Made by a program: the position numbers and the translations under genes. From contig NZ_AOID01000026.1 in NCBI RefSeq assembly GCF_000337195.1, positions 1 to 64,000 on the forward strand: a stretch of DNA of 64,000 bases, in the 5' to 3' direction. The notes beneath the pieces are model-generated. The model ran no database searches, was not told the origin of the DNA, and saw nothing but the letters and a program-made list of their open reading frames with translations. Positions within the stretch are counted from its first letter, which is position 1. Every line of letters begins with the position of its first letter. The stretch is from Natrinema versiforme JCM 10478 (GTDB taxonomy: Archaea > Halobacteriota > Halobacteria > Halobacteriales > Natrialbaceae). Below, piece after piece: positions 2,159 through 59,599 of this stretch.

Positions 2159-2503
2159 CAGTAGATCGTAGCGCGATTTCGTTACTCGGAATCCACTCCG
2201 GAACTGAATCGGGCGCAGTTCGGCCACTACACGTGCGAACCGAACTTTTGCGCTGCGGGCGCGACGGAGTCGCGCCCTCGGCAAAACTTCGATGAAAAGC
2301 ACAGCGTCACCCCCTCAGCCGCGCCGCTGGCGCGGCTTCGAGGATTCCTTGGCCCGCTCGCTCACGCCGTTCGCTCGCGGCTGCTAGCGGTAACGTCTCC
2401 GCCTATCCTGAACGCGATTTTCACGTCCCACTCCGAATAAGAAAACCGTGCTACCAACTACTGGTAAGTGTGTCAAGACTCGGCTCGAGTCCGGGTTCTC
2501 GCG
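2159..2503. repeat. Gene-free stretch with two perfect GC hairpins, probable dispersed element
   Basis: No gene is visible in these 345 bases. Two perfect inverted repeats stand out: 2257-2277 (9-bp arms, 3-base loop GGA) and 2317-2337 (9-bp arms, 3-base loop GCT). They flank an AAAACTTCGATGAAAAGCAC segment, and a third imperfect CGCTC-rich palindrome follows near 2350-2385. The layout resembles non-coding sequence that I recall recurring between genes of Natrialbales genomes, so a dispersed repeat is likely, but only one copy is in this window. Confidence 0.45.
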
Positions 2504-2932
2504 TCACTCGATGTCGTCGTGAGTCAGTAGCCGCCGCGTTCGCTCACTGTTGGGCTCCTCGTACGTGACGACCTCGAGGAGGTTGCCGTCCGGATCGAGG
2601 AAATAGAATCCCTCGAACTCCGCCCAGTCGTAGGGCCCCTGTTTCGGGAACTGCCCGTCGAGGTCGGCCACCAGCGAGTCGTAGGTCCCGCGGTCGGTCT
2701 CGAACGCGAGGTGGGCCTTGTCGAGCGGGTGCTCGAGCCCGCGCTCCCCCCAGTTCTCGGCGCGACCGGTTTCGGCGAGCGTGACGACGGTTTCGCCGGC
2801 CCGGAACATCGCGTGTTCGCCTTGAAAGTCCGCGGGCGGCCTGACCAGTTCGAGGTCGAGGGTGTCGCGGTAGAACTCGTAGCAGGGCTCGAGGGCGTCG
2901 ACATCGACGTTGATGTGATCGACGGCGTCCAT
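2504..2932 (-). CDS. VOC (glyoxalase/bleomycin resistance/dioxygenase) family protein
   Basis: A 142-residue single VOC module pair. It begins with AVDHINVDVDALEPCYEFYRD, the usual betaalphabeta start with a first metal-ligand candidate His, and ends with FYFLDPDGNLLEVVTYE, where the DPDGN turn and the Glu of LLEV are family hallmarks. It is probably a metal-dependent cytoplasmic enzyme; the substrate cannot be predicted. The start at 2932 sits 27 bases after a TATA box on the minus strand (2959-2966), so the message is leaderless; the longer frame would begin inside the promoter. It lies on the same strand as the cupin gene upstream. Confidence 0.88.
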   Translation of the reverse strand: MDAVDHINVDVDALEPCYEFYRDTLDLELVRPPADFQGEHAMFRAGETVVTLAETGRAENWGERGLEHPLDKAHLAFETDRGTYDSLVADLDGQFPKQGPYDWAEFEGFYFLDPDGNLLEVVTYEEPNSERTRRLLTHDDIE

Positions 2933-2958
2933 GCGAACATCCACCACGGGCGGCCCCA

Positions 2959-2966
2959 ATATACTA
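2959..2966 (-). promoter_or_regulatory. TATA box of the VOC gene
   Basis: The minus strand reads TAGTATAT, 27 bases before the ATG at 2932. It decides the start codon of the gene. Confidence 0.7.
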
Positions 2967-3052
2967 TCCGTGGCGGCCGCTCCGAGTCAGTCTGCGAACC
3001 GACCGCTCTCGCTCGAGTTGGCCTTCCGCAGCCGACACGCGTATCGGCTGCG

Positions 3053-3415
3053 TCAGTCCTGATCGACCGCCGACGGCGTTCGCCGCCAGTCGGGCTCCTC
3101 CCGCGGCGGTGCGAGGACGCCGATGCCGACCGCGTCCTCGTCGGTCCGATTTTCGGCCCCGTGGCGCTCGTTGCTCGAGAACATGTACGCGTCGCCGGCC
3201 GTGAGCGGGTACTCCTCACCCTCGACGATCGCGGTGAGTTCCCCCTCGAGGACGAACCCGATCTGTTCGTTCGCGTGCGTGTGAGCGGGCAGCGTGGCCC
3301 CCGACTCGATTTTCCAGTAGACCATGCCAGCTTGCTCCCCGGCGGGAAGGTCCGCGAGGGCAACCCCGTCGGCGACCGCCTCGAACTCCGCGCGCCCCGT
3401 CGATATCCGTTTCAT
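3053..3415 (-). CDS. Small cupin-domain protein
   Basis: A 120-residue single-domain cupin. Motif 1 is visible as PAHTHANEQIGFVLEGEL (two His and one Glu as metal ligands) and motif 2 as DAYMFSSNERHGAEN (His). The family binds a divalent metal and ranges from isomerases and dioxygenases to sensors; nothing here fixes the reaction. The start at 3415 (MKRISTG) is favoured over an upstream in-frame ATG because a TATA-like TTTAT lies at about 3446-3450. It is divergent from the binding-protein operon that begins at 3499, so the two could share control. Confidence 0.88.
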   Translation of the reverse strand: MKRISTGRAEFEAVADGVALADLPAGEQAGMVYWKIESGATLPAHTHANEQIGFVLEGELTAIVEGEEYPLTAGDAYMFSSNERHGAENRTDEDAVGIGVLAPPREEPDWRRTPSAVDQD

Positions 3416-53935: not shown

Positions 53936-54050
53936 CGAGCGGGTGATTTCGTCGCCGCTCGAATAAGTTTCGGGGTCGCTACACGGCAGGCCCGCGGCTC
54001 CGGATCGAAACGGAGACCGATTCGAGCGAAGCGACCGCGTCGACGGCCAG

Positions 54051-54803
54051 CTACTGGCTGAGATAGCCGCCGTCGACGCCGAGCGCTTCCCCAGTGACGA
54101 ACGACGCCTCGTCGCTGCAGAGCCAGACGACCGCACCGGCGACCTCATCGGGCGTTCCGAGGCGGTTCATCGCGTGCATGCTCTCGATCTGCGTGCGCGT
54201 CTCGTCGTCCATCGAACCCTCGAGAAGCGGCGTTTCGATGAAGCCGGGACAGACGCTGTTGATGCGGACGCCCGTTTCACCGTTCTCGAGGGCGGCGCTT
54301 TTCGTGAGCCCGAGGACCCCGTGCTTGGCCGCGGAGTACGCCGACGAGGTCGCGAAGCCGACTTTACCGAGTACCGAGGCGTTGTTCACGATGACGCCGC
54401 CCGACTCCTGTTCTTGCATGCACTCGAGTTCTGCTTTCATGGAGTTGAAGACGCCGACCAGGTTCACGTCGATGACTCCCTGCCAGCTCTCGGCAGGGTA
54501 CTCGTCGATGGGTGCCTGTTCGCCGCCGATTCCGGCGTTGTTGAACGCACAGTCGAGGCGTCCGTATTCCTCGACCGCGGTATCGATCATCGCACCTGCG
54601 GCGTCCGGATCGGACACGTCCGTCTCGACGAACAGCGCGTCGCCGCCGGCGTCTTCGATCTCGTCGACGGTCGCCTCGCCGCCATCGACGTCGAGATCGG
54701 CGACGACGACGTTCGCCCCTCTGTCCGCGAACTCGAGTGCGGTCGCCCGTCCGATCCCCGATCCGCCGCCCGTGATGACCGCCGTCTGCTCGTCGGTTTC
54801 CAT
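54051..54803 (-). CDS. Short-chain dehydrogenase/reductase
   Basis: A 250-residue classical SDR. Cofactor motif: AVITGGGSGIGRATALEFAD, with ADLDVDGGEAT after strand 2 suggesting NAD preference. NNAGIGG and the catalytic Ser in VNNASVLGKVG, then Tyr and Lys in SSAYSAAKHGVLG are all present. The C-terminal end is GEALGVDGGYLSQ. It is a cytoplasmic oxidoreductase of alcohols or ketones with unknown substrate. The ATG at 54803 is preferred to one three codons upstream, since the family usually begins close to the TGxxxGIG motif. Confidence 0.93.
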   Translation of the reverse strand: METDEQTAVITGGGSGIGRATALEFADRGANVVVADLDVDGGEATVDEIEDAGGDALFVETDVSDPDAAGAMIDTAVEEYGRLDCAFNNAGIGGEQAPIDEYPAESWQGVIDVNLVGVFNSMKAELECMQEQESGGVIVNNASVLGKVGFATSSAYSAAKHGVLGLTKSAALENGETGVRINSVCPGFIETPLLEGSMDDETRTQIESMHAMNRLGTPDEVAGAVVWLCSDEASFVTGEALGVDGGYLSQ

Positions 54804-54937
54804 ACCCACCACTGTGGCCGGCCCCTGGCAAAAACGATGGGAGCAGTCTCAGATCGTGGGCAAACGCAGTGGGTCGACGCCCGCTCTTTCCCCGCGTTCG
54901 AGCGCACGATGGCGGTTCTCAGAGAACGCCACGGCAC

Positions 54938-55345
54938 CTACTCGAGTGCGTACCAGTCGAAGCGCTCGACCGCGTACCGGTAGGAGACGACCGGCGCGAG
55001 CAGGCCGCCGATCAGCACGATCCACGCCCCGACGGTGATGCCGTGTGCGGAGATCGAGAGGTCCGGAGCCGGCGTCCACGCGGCGACCGACGTGATCAGC
55101 CCGGCAATCGTCTCGGGGGCCTCGAGATAGAGCACGAGCGCAGCGACCGTTGGGAGGATGATCGCGAGGGTGTAGACGACGAAGGCGGTCTTGCTCGGCA
55201 TCACGGCCTCACGGTTGTTTGTCACGTTGACGCTGCCAAAGCGGGGGAACGCCGACCCGATTCCCGACGCCAGCGCCGGCGTGACGACCGCGCCGACGGC
55301 GGTCCCGGCGACCAGAGCCGCGGTTCGCTCGAGTGAGAGAGGCAG
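54938..55345 (-). pseudogene. Truncated C-terminal copy of an ABC transporter permease
   Basis: The open frame encodes 136 residues almost identical to the last 136 residues of the intact permease at 56947-58614 (both end VSYRYA(V/I)ERFDWYALE). By eye there are about 20 mismatches in the first ~215 aligned bases. Similarity fades out near 55345-55365, where unrelated sequence begins, and the N-terminal three quarters is missing. The stop codons differ (TAG here, TGA there), so this is not a recent exact copy. It is most likely a dead remnant left by recombination, though a short membrane peptide could still be made. Confidence 0.85.
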
Positions 55346-55357
55346 CAATTCTGAAGG

Positions 55358-55495
55358 CGCTCAAGACGCCGACGATTGCTGGCACGGAAATCTCTCCGGG
55401 TTCCTGAGATCGTCGACAAAACAGGCGTCCGGGAACGGTACGCGGATAATGTCGTGCGAATGGTGACCGAACACGATCCCGACAGTATAAGTTGA
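55358..55495 (+). pseudogene. C-terminal fragment of an unidentified gene
   Basis: An open stretch of about 46 codons without a usable start: RLLARKSLRVPEIVDKTGVR, ERYADNVVRMVTEHDPDSIS, then TGA. The composition is normal for the genome, but the piece starts abruptly at the break of the permease remnant. It looks like the tail of a protein cut by a rearrangement. I cannot name the family. Confidence 0.4.
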
Positions 55496-55528
55496 CCGCT
55501 ATCCTGGCGTTACTATGTTTGTTCAGTG

Positions 55529-55670
55529 CCAGAATTTGTGTCTGAATCGGATGTTTACCATTATTTCGTCGGTCTCGGTTTCGGTAATCTGAATTGAAGA
55601 GGGGATAGCGCGCAGTCTCGTCGGCACGAGGCCACTGCGCCGCGCTAATCGCCGATAGATGCTTTTGATA
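55529..55670 (-). pseudogene. Decayed C-terminal fragment of a DUF457/YdjM-type hydrolase gene
   Basis: Read on the minus strand, this contains SIYRRLARRSGLVPTRLRAI, then ITETETDEIMVNIRF. It lines up with the C-terminal end of the intact gene at 51034-51693 (TLGRLVPRRLRAVVPTVRVT, TETETDGTTIDIRFGR). There is no stop at the expected place and no N-terminal part. It is a remnant of a second copy, and supports the view that 54.9-57 kb was rearranged. Confidence 0.65.
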
Positions 55671-55835
55671 GTCATAATACCCTACAACCCGACCAGCCAT
55701 AGTTGGCGCACTCAAATCTTGAAGGTATGATTCTCTAAGATATAGGAGTAGATTACAGCTCTCGGTGATCGATCTACCTAATAATTAGATAACCAGCCCA
55801 CTATATTTGACTTCAATACGAGATAAACCGGGATA

Positions 55836-55874
55836 GATATAAATAATTGGAATATAAATAACATTATTGGAATA
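55836..55874 (+). promoter_or_regulatory. Promoter of the halocin-like gene with a 20-base-phased direct repeat
   Basis: AGATATAAAT at 55835-55844 is a TATA box with about 30 bases to the ATG, and a second AT box (AATATAAATA, 55851-55860) lies nearer. The 9-base word ATTGGAATA occurs at 55846-55854 and again at 55866-55874, start to start 20 bases, about two helical turns. This spacing suits a regulator that binds one face of the DNA. The second copy ends at the start codon. Confidence 0.5.
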
Positions 55875-56654
55875 ATGGTTGATACCACAGACGATAATAA
55901 TGATAGGGATAATGAATCAATTAATAGGAGATCTGTATTAAAGTCGGTTGGAAAAACTAGTGCCGTAGGTATGATTGGGGCGACTGGCTCGGTTGCTGCG
56001 GCAGAGGGTGGCTCAGATGATGGCAGTAACGCGGCTATTAGGGAATTACAGAGTAAACAAGTGAACCAAATTCGTGAAAAAGCTCAAGAATTAACGGGAT
56101 TTGACACTCTAGCTGGATACATGAACGAAGAAGGGTTCCGCATTAACTCTGACGACATCAGAGGATGGGAAATATCCGGGCCAAACCAGAAGGATCGTCG
56201 TGTTCTTGGGATCCCTGCTGAAATAGACGATGAACCAATTGAAAAAGCCACAATCGTCGCCACATTTAGGGAGGACGCCGAGACCTTCCTTGAAGGAACG
56301 TGGGTGGTTGAACCAAAAAGTGGTTCTGATACTATTGTCACTGCTACAGTCAATAACGGGCGAATTAAGACAGATGTAGTGTCGTCACACGAAAGAAGTC
56401 CTTCGACACGTGAACAAAGGGCTACAGCACAAGATTGGTTACCTGATGCTGAGTGCAGTACATGTAAATCAGTATTTAATCTAGCCTGTAACAAAGGCTG
56501 TGATGTCTATTTCGGAGTACTATGCACCGGAAGCTTAATTGCCCGGCGTGCATGCAAGGAGATAACAAAAGATATGTGTGATTTTATTGGAGATGACTCA
56601 GATGCATGTGATTTAGGAGCAGAGGAAGCCTGTGATGATTTAGGATACTGCTAA
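55875..56654 (+). CDS. Tat-exported precursor of a halocin C8-like cysteine-rich peptide
   Basis: A 259-residue precursor. The Tat signal is INRRSVLKSVGKTSAVGMIG (residues 16-35), ending near AVAAAEG. A charged middle region (about 49-186) follows. The last 73 residues (from Asp 187) hold ten cysteines with the spacing C-x2-C-x7-C-x3-C-x7-C-x9-C-x7-C-x9-C-x7-C-x5-C and end in Cys. Halocin C8 is also released from the C-terminus of a Tat precursor and has ten cysteines; its released N-terminal part gives immunity. I infer that this protein makes an antimicrobial peptide plus its own immunity protein. The gene is AT-rich, unlike its neighbours. ABC transporter genes lie downstream. Confidence 0.82.
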   Translation: MVDTTDDNNDRDNESINRRSVLKSVGKTSAVGMIGATGSVAAAEGGSDDGSNAAIRELQSKQVNQIREKAQELTGFDTLAGYMNEEGFRINSDDIRGWEISGPNQKDRRVLGIPAEIDDEPIEKATIVATFREDAETFLEGTWVVEPKSGSDTIVTATVNNGRIKTDVVSSHERSPSTREQRATAQDWLPDAECSTCKSVFNLACNKGCDVYFGVLCTGSLIARRACKEITKDMCDFIGDDSDACDLGAEEACDDLGYC

Positions 56655-56946
56655 CGATCCGTAACGACTGCCATTATTATTCTCTACTCTGATTAAATTG
56701 CTGGGATTGGTTGAGAATATCAACCAAATAGTGTAGCTATTTTGTGGTAATAAAGTTATTGGGTCTGGTCTGGACGACATTTTCTGAGACAAGGATCACT
56801 TGTTTTTCGTCGATCTCTGTGGACGACAGCTTCTCAGCTTCTAGATAGGTATTGGATCGCCGAGATCGATTGAATGATAAGATCGGGACCCGTGGTATCG
56901 ACTTTGGTCACCAATCTGAACTCGAGTCCAGTCTTTCAATATCGAT
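56655..56946. other. AT-rich spacer after the halocin-like gene, possible coding remnant
   Basis: No complete gene is visible. On the minus strand, 56737-56870 can be read as the tail of a protein (RRSNTYLEAEKLSSTEIDEK, then QVILVSENVVQTRPNNFITT and a stop), with no start codon or N-terminal part. It may be a decayed gene, but the evidence is weak. The composition changes back to GC-rich at 56947. Confidence 0.4.
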
Positions 56947-58614
56947 TCATTCGAGTGCGTACCAGTCGAAGCGCTCGATCGCGTACCGGTAGGAGACGAC
57001 CGGTGCGATCAGGCCGCCGATCAGCACGATCCACGCCCCGACGGTGATGGCGCGTGCGGAGATTGAGATATCGGGAACCGGCGTCCATGCGGCGACCGAC
57101 GCGATCAGCCCGGCGATCGTCTCGGGAGCCTCAAGATAGATCACGAGCGCGGCGATTGTGGGGAGGACGATCGCGAGCGTGTAGACGACGAAGGCCGTCT
57201 TGCTCGGCATTACGGCCTCGCGGTTGTTCGTCACATTGACGCTGCCGAAGCGAGGAAATGCCGACCCGATTCCCGATGCCAGTGCCGGCGTGACGACCGC
57301 TCCAACGACGGTGCCGGCAGCTAGGGCAGTGGCCTGCTTGAGCGAGAGCGGGCTGACGATTCCGAATGCGAGCGACACGAGGAGGGCAAGCGGAACGGCA
57401 ACGAGCGCACCGGCGAGCATGCGGCCGCGGATCGCCTGCCGGCCGGTGAGCGTCGACGTGACGACGGCGGGCAGCGCCGGGCCGAGGTCGCCGAGCGGGT
57501 TGAGCGTAAACAGGACCCCGGTCGTCCAGACCACGTACAGACAGAACACGACAGCCATGAACGACGGCACTGTGCCGGTCTCAATAATCTGCTGGATGAA
57601 ACCGAGCACGCCGAGCAGCGGATAGCCGGCGTACGCCAAGCGGATCGGCGCTCGCTTCGTCCGACGGACCGCTGTCACCGCCACCGTCCGGACCGGTCGC
57701 GAGACGCTTCCCGGGAGGAGGCCGGAGAGTTGGTCGGATGATGTCTTTTCGTCGATCTCCTCGTCGTCAGTTCGGGCCGAATCAGCGAACCAGTGGCGCT
57801 GTGCAGAGGGGATACCGGCGATGAAGGCGACCCCGACGAGGAGAGAGGATCCGGCGACCGCACCGGCGATGCCGACCATCGACGGGTCGATACCGGGGAC
57901 TCCGACCAGCAGCAGGTGGCCGGGCCATCCGAGCGGGCTGGTCTGTAACGTCGTGAACAGTGACCACATGACTACGTTTAGTCCGCCGGTCGCAATCGCG
58001 CTGAAGTAGACGAGCCAGAACGCGGCGAACAGCAGTGTTCGATACCGAGCGACCGGCTCGTAGACGGTGATCAGGTGCCGAACCCAGACGCCGATGACGA
58101 ATCCGACGGGGATGGCGGTGAGCAGGAGAAGGGCGACCAGCAACGGTGCGACGAGTACTGGAAGTACCGTCCCCGTTCCGTATGCGAACGCGGCGGCGAA
58201 AAGCACAGCGAGGGGTATCAGAACGCTCGCATAGAGTGCAGTTTCGGCGGCAACGATACCGATGATGATGTTCCGGACCGTCGTTGACAACAGGAGAAAA
58301 GCCGGTTCGTCGACGTTAGCAACTGTCGTCACGGTACGTAGGATTGACATCACTACCAGAGACACCCACAGGACTGCAACACCGCCGGTCACGATCTCTG
58401 TGACCGTCGTCGCGACCTCCGTCGACACCGTTCCGGCGGCGGCCTGTTCCCCGAGTTCCGGGAGGAATAACAAGCCAAGGGCCGTAACCGGCCCGAGGAC
58501 GAACAGCGCGACTGCCGCCATCATGAGCAGTTTCGTTCGATTACCGACCATCGCTCGCACGGTGCGCCGCACTTCCGTTTCGGCGACGGTCATCGAAATC
58601 GGGGCGCGTCCCAT
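56947..58614 (-). CDS. ABC transporter permease, large multi-helix type
   Basis: A 555-residue membrane protein with roughly 12-14 hydrophobic segments and a charged loop near residues 290-330 (RTDDEEIDEKTSSDQL). It has no ATPase motif, but an ABC ATP-binding gene is divergent 202 bases away, which suggests an exporter made of the two. The start is the ATG at 58614 (MGRAPISMTVAETEVR); 58593 is an alternative. The C-terminal quarter is duplicated in the truncated copy at 54938-55345. The transported compound is unknown; halocin export, self-protection or an unrelated drug are all possible. Confidence 0.82.
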   Translation of the reverse strand: MGRAPISMTVAETEVRRTVRAMVGNRTKLLMMAAVALFVLGPVTALGLLFLPELGEQAAAGTVSTEVATTVTEIVTGGVAVLWVSLVVMSILRTVTTVANVDEPAFLLLSTTVRNIIIGIVAAETALYASVLIPLAVLFAAAFAYGTGTVLPVLVAPLLVALLLLTAIPVGFVIGVWVRHLITVYEPVARYRTLLFAAFWLVYFSAIATGGLNVVMWSLFTTLQTSPLGWPGHLLLVGVPGIDPSMVGIAGAVAGSSLLVGVAFIAGIPSAQRHWFADSARTDDEEIDEKTSSDQLSGLLPGSVSRPVRTVAVTAVRRTKRAPIRLAYAGYPLLGVLGFIQQIIETGTVPSFMAVVFCLYVVWTTGVLFTLNPLGDLGPALPAVVTSTLTGRQAIRGRMLAGALVAVPLALLVSLAFGIVSPLSLKQATALAAGTVVGAVVTPALASGIGSAFPRFGSVNVTNNREAVMPSKTAFVVYTLAIVLPTIAALVIYLEAPETIAGLIASVAAWTPVPDISISARAITVGAWIVLIGGLIAPVVSYRYAIERFDWYALE

Positions 58615-58787
58615 CAGCTCCCACCTCGGCTCGAGTGGACGGGGTACGGGCGTGCGTGAATCACAACCGATGCTCCGTTGCGCGCTTAGTAAACTGTTTG
58701 GATGTTTGTCATTCCGCTTGTTCCGATCCCGTTCTCGAGTGCCGATCGACCTGGCGGCGCTCGCATCGCTGCAAGCTATGACACACA

Positions 58788-58799
58788 TTTAATTATACC
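58788..58799 (+). promoter_or_regulatory. TATA region of the ABC ATPase gene
   Basis: TTTAATTATACC, ending 17 bases before the ATG at 58817; its T-rich core is 22-29 bases upstream, giving a leaderless transcript. Confidence 0.65.
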
Positions 58800-58816: not shown

Positions 58817-59599
58817 ATGAGCCCTGTCGACGCCCTCGCTATCGAAACCGACGGACTGACCAAGCGCTACGGCGAGACGACCGCCGTCTCGGAGCTGACG
58901 ATGGACGTCGATCGCGGGACCGTCTACGGCTTTCTCGGCCCCAACGGTGCGGGGAAGACGACCACGATGCGGATGCTGACGACGCTGACGAAGCCGACCG
59001 ACGGGACCGCCCGCGTCGCCGGCCACTCGATCGCGGATCGGGAGTCAGTCACGCCACACATCGGGTACCTCCCCGAGGAGCCGCCGGTCTACGACGAACT
59101 CTCCGGCCGCGAGCAACTCGAGTACGCTGCCGGACTGCGGGACATCCCCGAGGCCGACGCCGCAGAGCGCATCGAGTCGCTACTCGAGCGCTTTGACCTG
59201 CTCGAAGACGCGAACAAACGCATCGAGGACTACTCGAAGGGGATGCGCCAGAAGGTCGGCGTCATTCAGGCGGTCCTCCACGAACCGGACGTGGCCTTCC
59301 TCGACGAGCCGACGAGCGGGCTCGATCCCCGCGCCGCGCGGACGATGCGGGATACCATCGCCGACCTGGCCGATCGGGAGATGACGATCTTCCTCTCGAC
59401 GCACATCCTCCCCGTCGTCGACGAACTGGCCGACGAGATCGGCGTGCTCCACGATGGCGAACTCGTCGCGGAGGGCGACCCCGAGACGCTCAAGTCCCGT
59501 GCCGAGACCGGCGATGCCCGCAGCTTGGAGGACGCCTTCCTCGAGATCACCCGCGAGCACGGACAGGAGGGTATGGCGGCAGAGCCGTCGTTCGAGTGA
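58817..59599 (+). CDS. ABC transporter ATP-binding protein
   Basis: A 260-residue ATPase with Walker A GPNGAGKTTTMRML, the signature YSKGMRQKVGVIQ, Walker B DVAFLDEPTSGLDPRA and the switch histidine in LSTHILP. It is of the type that pairs with ABC-2-like or other exporter permeases (CcmA/DrrA-like). It lies divergent from the permease gene, with a shared 202-base promoter region. ATP hydrolysis occurs in the cytoplasm at the membrane. Whether it serves the halocin-like peptide is an inference from location only. Confidence 0.95.
   Translation: MSPVDALAIETDGLTKRYGETTAVSELTMDVDRGTVYGFLGPNGAGKTTTMRMLTTLTKPTDGTARVAGHSIADRESVTPHIGYLPEEPPVYDELSGREQLEYAAGLRDIPEADAAERIESLLERFDLLEDANKRIEDYSKGMRQKVGVIQAVLHEPDVAFLDEPTSGLDPRAARTMRDTIADLADREMTIFLSTHILPVVDELADEIGVLHDGELVAEGDPETLKSRAETGDARSLEDAFLEITREHGQEGMAAEPSFE

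Follow-up and report, generated by a model that had tools for sequence, protein, structure and literature searches.

Does a lone AT-rich gene in Natrinema versiforme JCM 10478 encode an antimicrobial of the halocin C8 type, and what kind of activity could its peptide have with charges where its relatives carry a hydrophobic core? Halocin C8 is described as the halocin that is best understood in molecular terms (PMC11509114), and a single gene, a 283-aa Tat precursor, a 76-aa peptide and a producer/immunity scheme have been described for it (PMC11509114, PMC3831642). The gene considered here lies in a stretch of 64,000 nucleotides that was analysed as a whole (the window), and an earlier note had read it as a halocin C8-like precursor in an AT-rich insert. 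The features that bear on this reading are listed below.

54941..55351, minus strand: 3' stub of an ABC-type permease, about 400 bp, about 88-90% identical to the second copy and 94% to the relative G302
55343..56950, no strand: AT-rich insert, about 1.6 kb, one convincing gene, unmatched in G302
55838-55844 and 55853-55859, plus strand: two TATAAAT boxes, 16-37 bases upstream of the ATG
55875..56654, plus strand: halocin C8-like precursor gene, 259 aa (translation, profile searches, tree)
55875..56006, plus strand: Tat signal region, residues 1-44 (SINRRSVLKSVG...SVAAAE) (inspection, weak TIGR02811 match)
56019..56432, plus strand: HalI-like middle domain, residues 49-186, predicted helix-loop-helix then beta strands (profiles, models)
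56433..56651, plus strand: putative mature peptide, residues 187-259, ten Cys (profiles, Cys spacing)
56499..56579, plus strand: charged core, Cys4-Cys7 (CDVYFGVLCTGSLIARRACKEITKDMC) (GRAVY and charge counts against n=48)
56947..58788, minus strand: gene for a 613-aa ABC-type permease without a Pfam family, a mosaic allele that runs convergently to the halocin-like gene
58817..59599, plus strand: gene for a 260-aa ABC transporter ATPase, oriented divergently from the permease gene (PF00005, E=7e-29)

The gene and the insert that carries it

Re-translation of 55875-56654 gave exactly the open reading frame, coordinates and Tat motif first described, and all nine spacings of the ten-Cys, 73-residue tail (2, 7, 3, 7, 9, 7, 9, 7 and 5) were reproduced; the ten cysteines lie at residues 194-259, and the middle of the protein contains none. 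The frame has a G+C content of 44% and a GC3 of 0.35 in a window of about 66% G+C, its codon positions follow a pattern that fits a coding gene (GC1>GC2>GC3, 0.53/0.46/0.35), and none of its antisense frames is open in register through the ten-Cys tail. The twin-arginine pair at residues 18-19 falls within an INRRSVLK motif, identified by inspection, that provides the Tat-type N-terminal signal of the halocin C8-like superfamily, and TIGR02811 (TAT-target) matches the protein weakly. The pair of TATAAAT boxes would be compatible with a haloarchaeal promoter, the first of which would yield a nearly leaderless transcript with a very short leader.

The AT-rich insert was likewise recovered: 55343-56950 has no match in G302, the nearest relative by DNA, to which the flanks of the insert are mostly 90-96% identical, and its DNA gave no strong match in 40 relatives. 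A survey of open reading frames in the insert found the halocin-like gene to be the only convincing one, which rules out a separate dedicated immunity gene there. The GNAT gene, permease and ATPase of G302 stand in a row. In the window, the stub (54941-55351) and the corresponding part of the full permease (56951-57351) form a direct repeat of about 400 bp; the interior of the full permease is 74-81% identical to G302 and 87-90% identical to the congener G403 over 57250-58250, and the DNA beyond it is mostly 85-96% G302-like. The simplest account would be that recombination imported the halocin-like gene together with part or all of a second permease, leaving the resident stub.

A short-chain dehydrogenase gene at 54014-54936, flanked by the GNAT gene on one side and the permease stub on the other, is missing at that place in G302, and constitutes a second presence/absence difference, adjoining the insert.

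Relationship to halocin C8

The tail aligned with TIGR04449 (halocin_C8_dom) from end to end, over 69 of 69 positions, yet scored 20.7 bits (E=6e-4) in the protein search and 23.5 bits in the genome search, 0.5-3.3 bits under the curated cut-off of 24 bits and thus short of formal membership. An HMM of other haloarchaeal tails, from which this protein was excluded, scored the tail at E=2.8e-9, and a resemblance of this strength to a model built without it is not due to chance. The proposal that residues 187-259 would match halocin C8 models was therefore borne out by this profile and by the full TIGR04449 alignment, but not at the curated threshold. All ten cysteines of the superfamily frame, 2-7-3-7-(11-14)-7-(7-15)-(5-12)-(0-7), are present, though the Cys5-Cys6 gap of 9 is below the others' gaps. 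Against each relative, 9 of 10 Cys columns were kept versus 7-12 of about 53 other tail columns (Fisher p 1e-4 to 3e-6), the tenth Cys being present and offset by one column by the aligner. A broad alignment was too diverse for a pattern search. An intracellular zinc-binding protein, which the richness in cysteine and the CxxC motif might suggest, is scarcely credible for a sequence that has a Tat signal and a tail without His and for which neither Pfam nor NCBIfam returned a zinc domain.

The middle domain is more distant. PF22862 (Hac8_like_N), for which 27 bits was the threshold for ProC8/HalC8 proper, scores 164 bits against ProC8; it has no match in the 259-aa protein at E<=10, was found nowhere in the protein's own genome, and is without a match in most of the sister subfamily (L025, L024, L036 and L037). 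Against a profile of that subfamily, with this protein excluded, residues 49-186 scored 39.9 bits (shuffle maximum 10.4), and against the HalC8-type middle profile directly they scored 5.9 bits (shuffle maximum 8.5); the sister-subfamily and HalC8-type middle profiles aligned to each other with an hhalign probability of 93% (E=3e-7). Sequence profiles thus support homology of the middle to the HalI-type domain, solely through the sister subfamily as intermediate. Structure prediction was limited to six sequences, and the AlphaFold model of this protein shows a strand, helix 60-71, helix 74-85, further strands and a helical tail, where that of ProC8 (mean pLDDT 53.7, with the middle reaching about 80-92 in places) shows a strand, helix 54-65, helix 68-79, further strands and a helical tail. 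The structural check put forward for the tail and residues 49-186 accordingly returned the ProC8 order of elements in a poor model (mean pLDDT 42.8), and this identity of predicted order is only consistent support, since HalC8-type sequences sat in the alignment behind this protein's model, so that the topology common to both models does not count as independent evidence. PMC11509114 cites a paper by Mei et al. (2008) whose title calls an N-terminal helix-loop-helix of HalI essential for immunity.

Searches with the 259-aa protein returned nothing useful from Pfam, PDB sequences or PHROGs and no close relative from GTDB contigs, IMG/VR or plasmids; no ortholog was found in these three collections or in the 40 relatives, and HalC8-type queries had no match among viral contigs. 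Its closest full-length relative, L025 (55.8 bits), belongs to another family of the order, and others scored 29-38 bits. In a maximum-likelihood tree of 47 members, the protein falls outside the 29-member clade that contains HalC8 (support 100/99), on the longest branch of the tree (2.7 versus a median of 0.7), and the tree gives it no firm place among the sister group.

The reference ProC8-type protein was L118 (genome G004) of Natrinema altunense AJ2, whose sequence we take to be that of HalC8; its length of 283 aa and its 76-residue tail are those reported for ProC8/HalC8. The two proteins share a single-gene organisation, the motif INRRxVLKxVG (INRRNVLKTVG in the 283-aa protein, INRRSVLK here), a middle of helix-loop-helix and strands, and ten cysteines with a 2-7-3-7 start and an ...EAC-x5-C end. 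They differ in overall sequence (about 25% identity, and a separate deep clade in the tree), in the Cys5-Cys6 loop (9 residues here, 13 in ProC8) and in the core, which is charged here and hydrophobic and Gly-rich in ProC8, and the PF22862 match is absent here. The sister subfamily is nearest in sequence, keeps the Cys frame and is encoded by genes that are AT-rich too (43-46% G+C) within G+C-rich flanks, but its cores are hydrophobic (GRAVY about 1.5) and its Cys5-Cys6 loops span 13-14 residues. Without a PF22862 match and with a placement outside the HalC8 clade, the gene should be filed beside, not inside, ProC8/HalC8: the halocin C8 reading of the earlier note holds for the architecture, by profiles, tree and predicted secondary structure, though not by the TIGR04449 cut-off or PF22862, and its new member is one of the superfamily rather than of ProC8/HalC8 proper. 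In substance the note was right: the gene encodes a precursor of the halocin C8 type, though a distant one, and the AT-rich patch that holds it is imported.

Could the gene instead be a decaying halocin gene, no longer functional, that arrived with the insert? The longest branch in the tree, the lack of a close relative and the foreign composition speak for this, but the frame is open, the Tat motif and ten cysteines are intact, codon positions are biased, the members of the nearest subfamily are equally AT-rich and intact, and the retention of Cys far above other tail residues argues against simple decay, which makes this account distinctly unlikely. A secreted Cys-rich protein with a non-antagonistic role, such as a protease inhibitor or cell-surface signal, would suit a hydrophilic, acidic and (by prediction) disulfide-rich tail; it is very unlikely, however, given that middle and tail both show homology to a family in which the member that has been studied acts as an antimicrobial, and that the TIGR04449-type halocin domain occurs sporadically, in 47 of 391 genomes. 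Such a sporadic distribution is typical of halocins.

Other loci found in the course of the searches depart from the ProC8 plan. In L178, L180, L181 and L182 (genomes G032, G163, G321 and G031), the N-terminal half of a Tat protein matches the halocin-precursor profile and the C-terminus is a quite different, Cys-containing hydrophobic tail, which suggests a wider set of precursors with swapped tails. L123/L185 of Natrinema pallidum DSM 3751 is a broken halocin locus, a remnant of the ProC8 middle domain that has no ten-Cys tail and adjoins the ProC8-linked permease paralog. In L120 of Natrinema gari JCM 14663, a HalC8-type open frame at 2477-3058, which lacks both a Tat signal and the beginning of the middle domain, is perhaps truncated or frameshifted.

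A charged core on a conserved cysteine scaffold

Among 61 distinct tails, 49 have the strict CxxC-x7-C-x3-C-x7-C start, this protein included, and in all 48 of the others the segment from Cys4 to Cys7 is hydrophobic and Gly/Ala-rich. Here it is not: its GRAVY is 0.43 versus 1.63+-0.25 (s.d.; minimum 1.09), it holds 7 charged residues versus a mean of 0.6 and a maximum of 4, and its Cys5-Cys6 gap is 9 residues versus 11-14 in relatives (the rows for L102 and L137 were out of register in the automatic core count, which leaves the conclusion unaffected). The charged core on a retained Cys scaffold is therefore an outlier within the superfamily, and with the hydrophobic core absent, an activity equal to that of the relatives cannot be assumed.

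One reading of this loss is that the protein serves immunity only, or as a decoy, the tail having given up its killing part and kept its scaffold while the middle protects the carrier against the halocins of its neighbours. The retention of all cysteines and of the middle domain beside the lost core would fit, as would the middle-only ProC8 remnants of Natrinema pallidum; yet that remnant lost its tail and kept its middle, while the ten-Cys tail is intact here, and cross-protection against HalC8 is doubtful, given how distant the middle domain is from HalI. This reading is unlikely. The product is probably a halocin C8 superfamily precursor that is encoded by one gene, leaves the cell by the Tat route, contains its own immunity-type domain and has an altered activity.

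On this preferred reading, the nearly leaderless transcript would be translated into the 259-aa precursor, which would fold and form disulfides at or after Tat export, with removal of the signal. An extracellular protease would then cut near residue 186/187, a site proposed by comparison with the 76-aa mature HalC8, to release a 73-residue peptide with up to five disulfides that would act on competing haloarchaea. The middle domain (residues 49-186), as the counterpart of HalI, would hold or neutralise the peptide and so protect the producer. With charges between Cys4 and Cys7, membrane insertion as for a hydrophobic-core member is improbable; the peptide probably does not insert in that way and is more likely to work from the surface, on another target, or less strongly.

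The neighbouring permease as a possible partner, and the killing part of halocin C8

A family of ABC-type permeases without a Pfam model stands beside halocin C8-domain genes at L171, L076, L172, L173, L174 and L170 and at 56947-58788 of the window. The neighbourhoods compared reached about 5 kb to either side. The 47 genomes counted carry 65 halocin-domain loci and 108 such permeases, and 12 of the 65 loci have a permease within 5 kb versus 0.47 expected under uniform placement; the Poisson p of 1.7e-13 overstates this excess, because the loci are not all independent and fall into about four arrangements, but the excess itself is clear. The halocin loci with an adjoining permease homolog include the ProC8-type gene of N. 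altunense. The window permease is an ortholog present in 29 of 29 genomes of the genus, most of them without a halocin match, and the ProC8-linked permease is a paralog with about 30% identity to it; the 5 kb around the ProC8-linked paralog showed no homolog of the ATPase. Such ubiquity in the genus had made the permease look like a mere bystander, a view displaced by the neighbourhood comparison in favour of a possible partner.

A role of the permease in halocin self-protection or export is a lead, not a finding, and since export needs Tat alone, self-protection would be the more natural guess. It is conceivable, though rather doubtful, that the charged-core branch makes a peptide without a hydrophobic hairpin, directed at a different target from HalC8's, that cooperates with the adjacent permease in self-protection or export. 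The recurrent permease is a candidate for a further means of export or self-protection, in addition to the HalI domain that the precursor contains. With a natural variant in which the Cys scaffold is kept and the greasy core is exchanged for charges, the question of which part of the halocin C8 peptide kills becomes testable.
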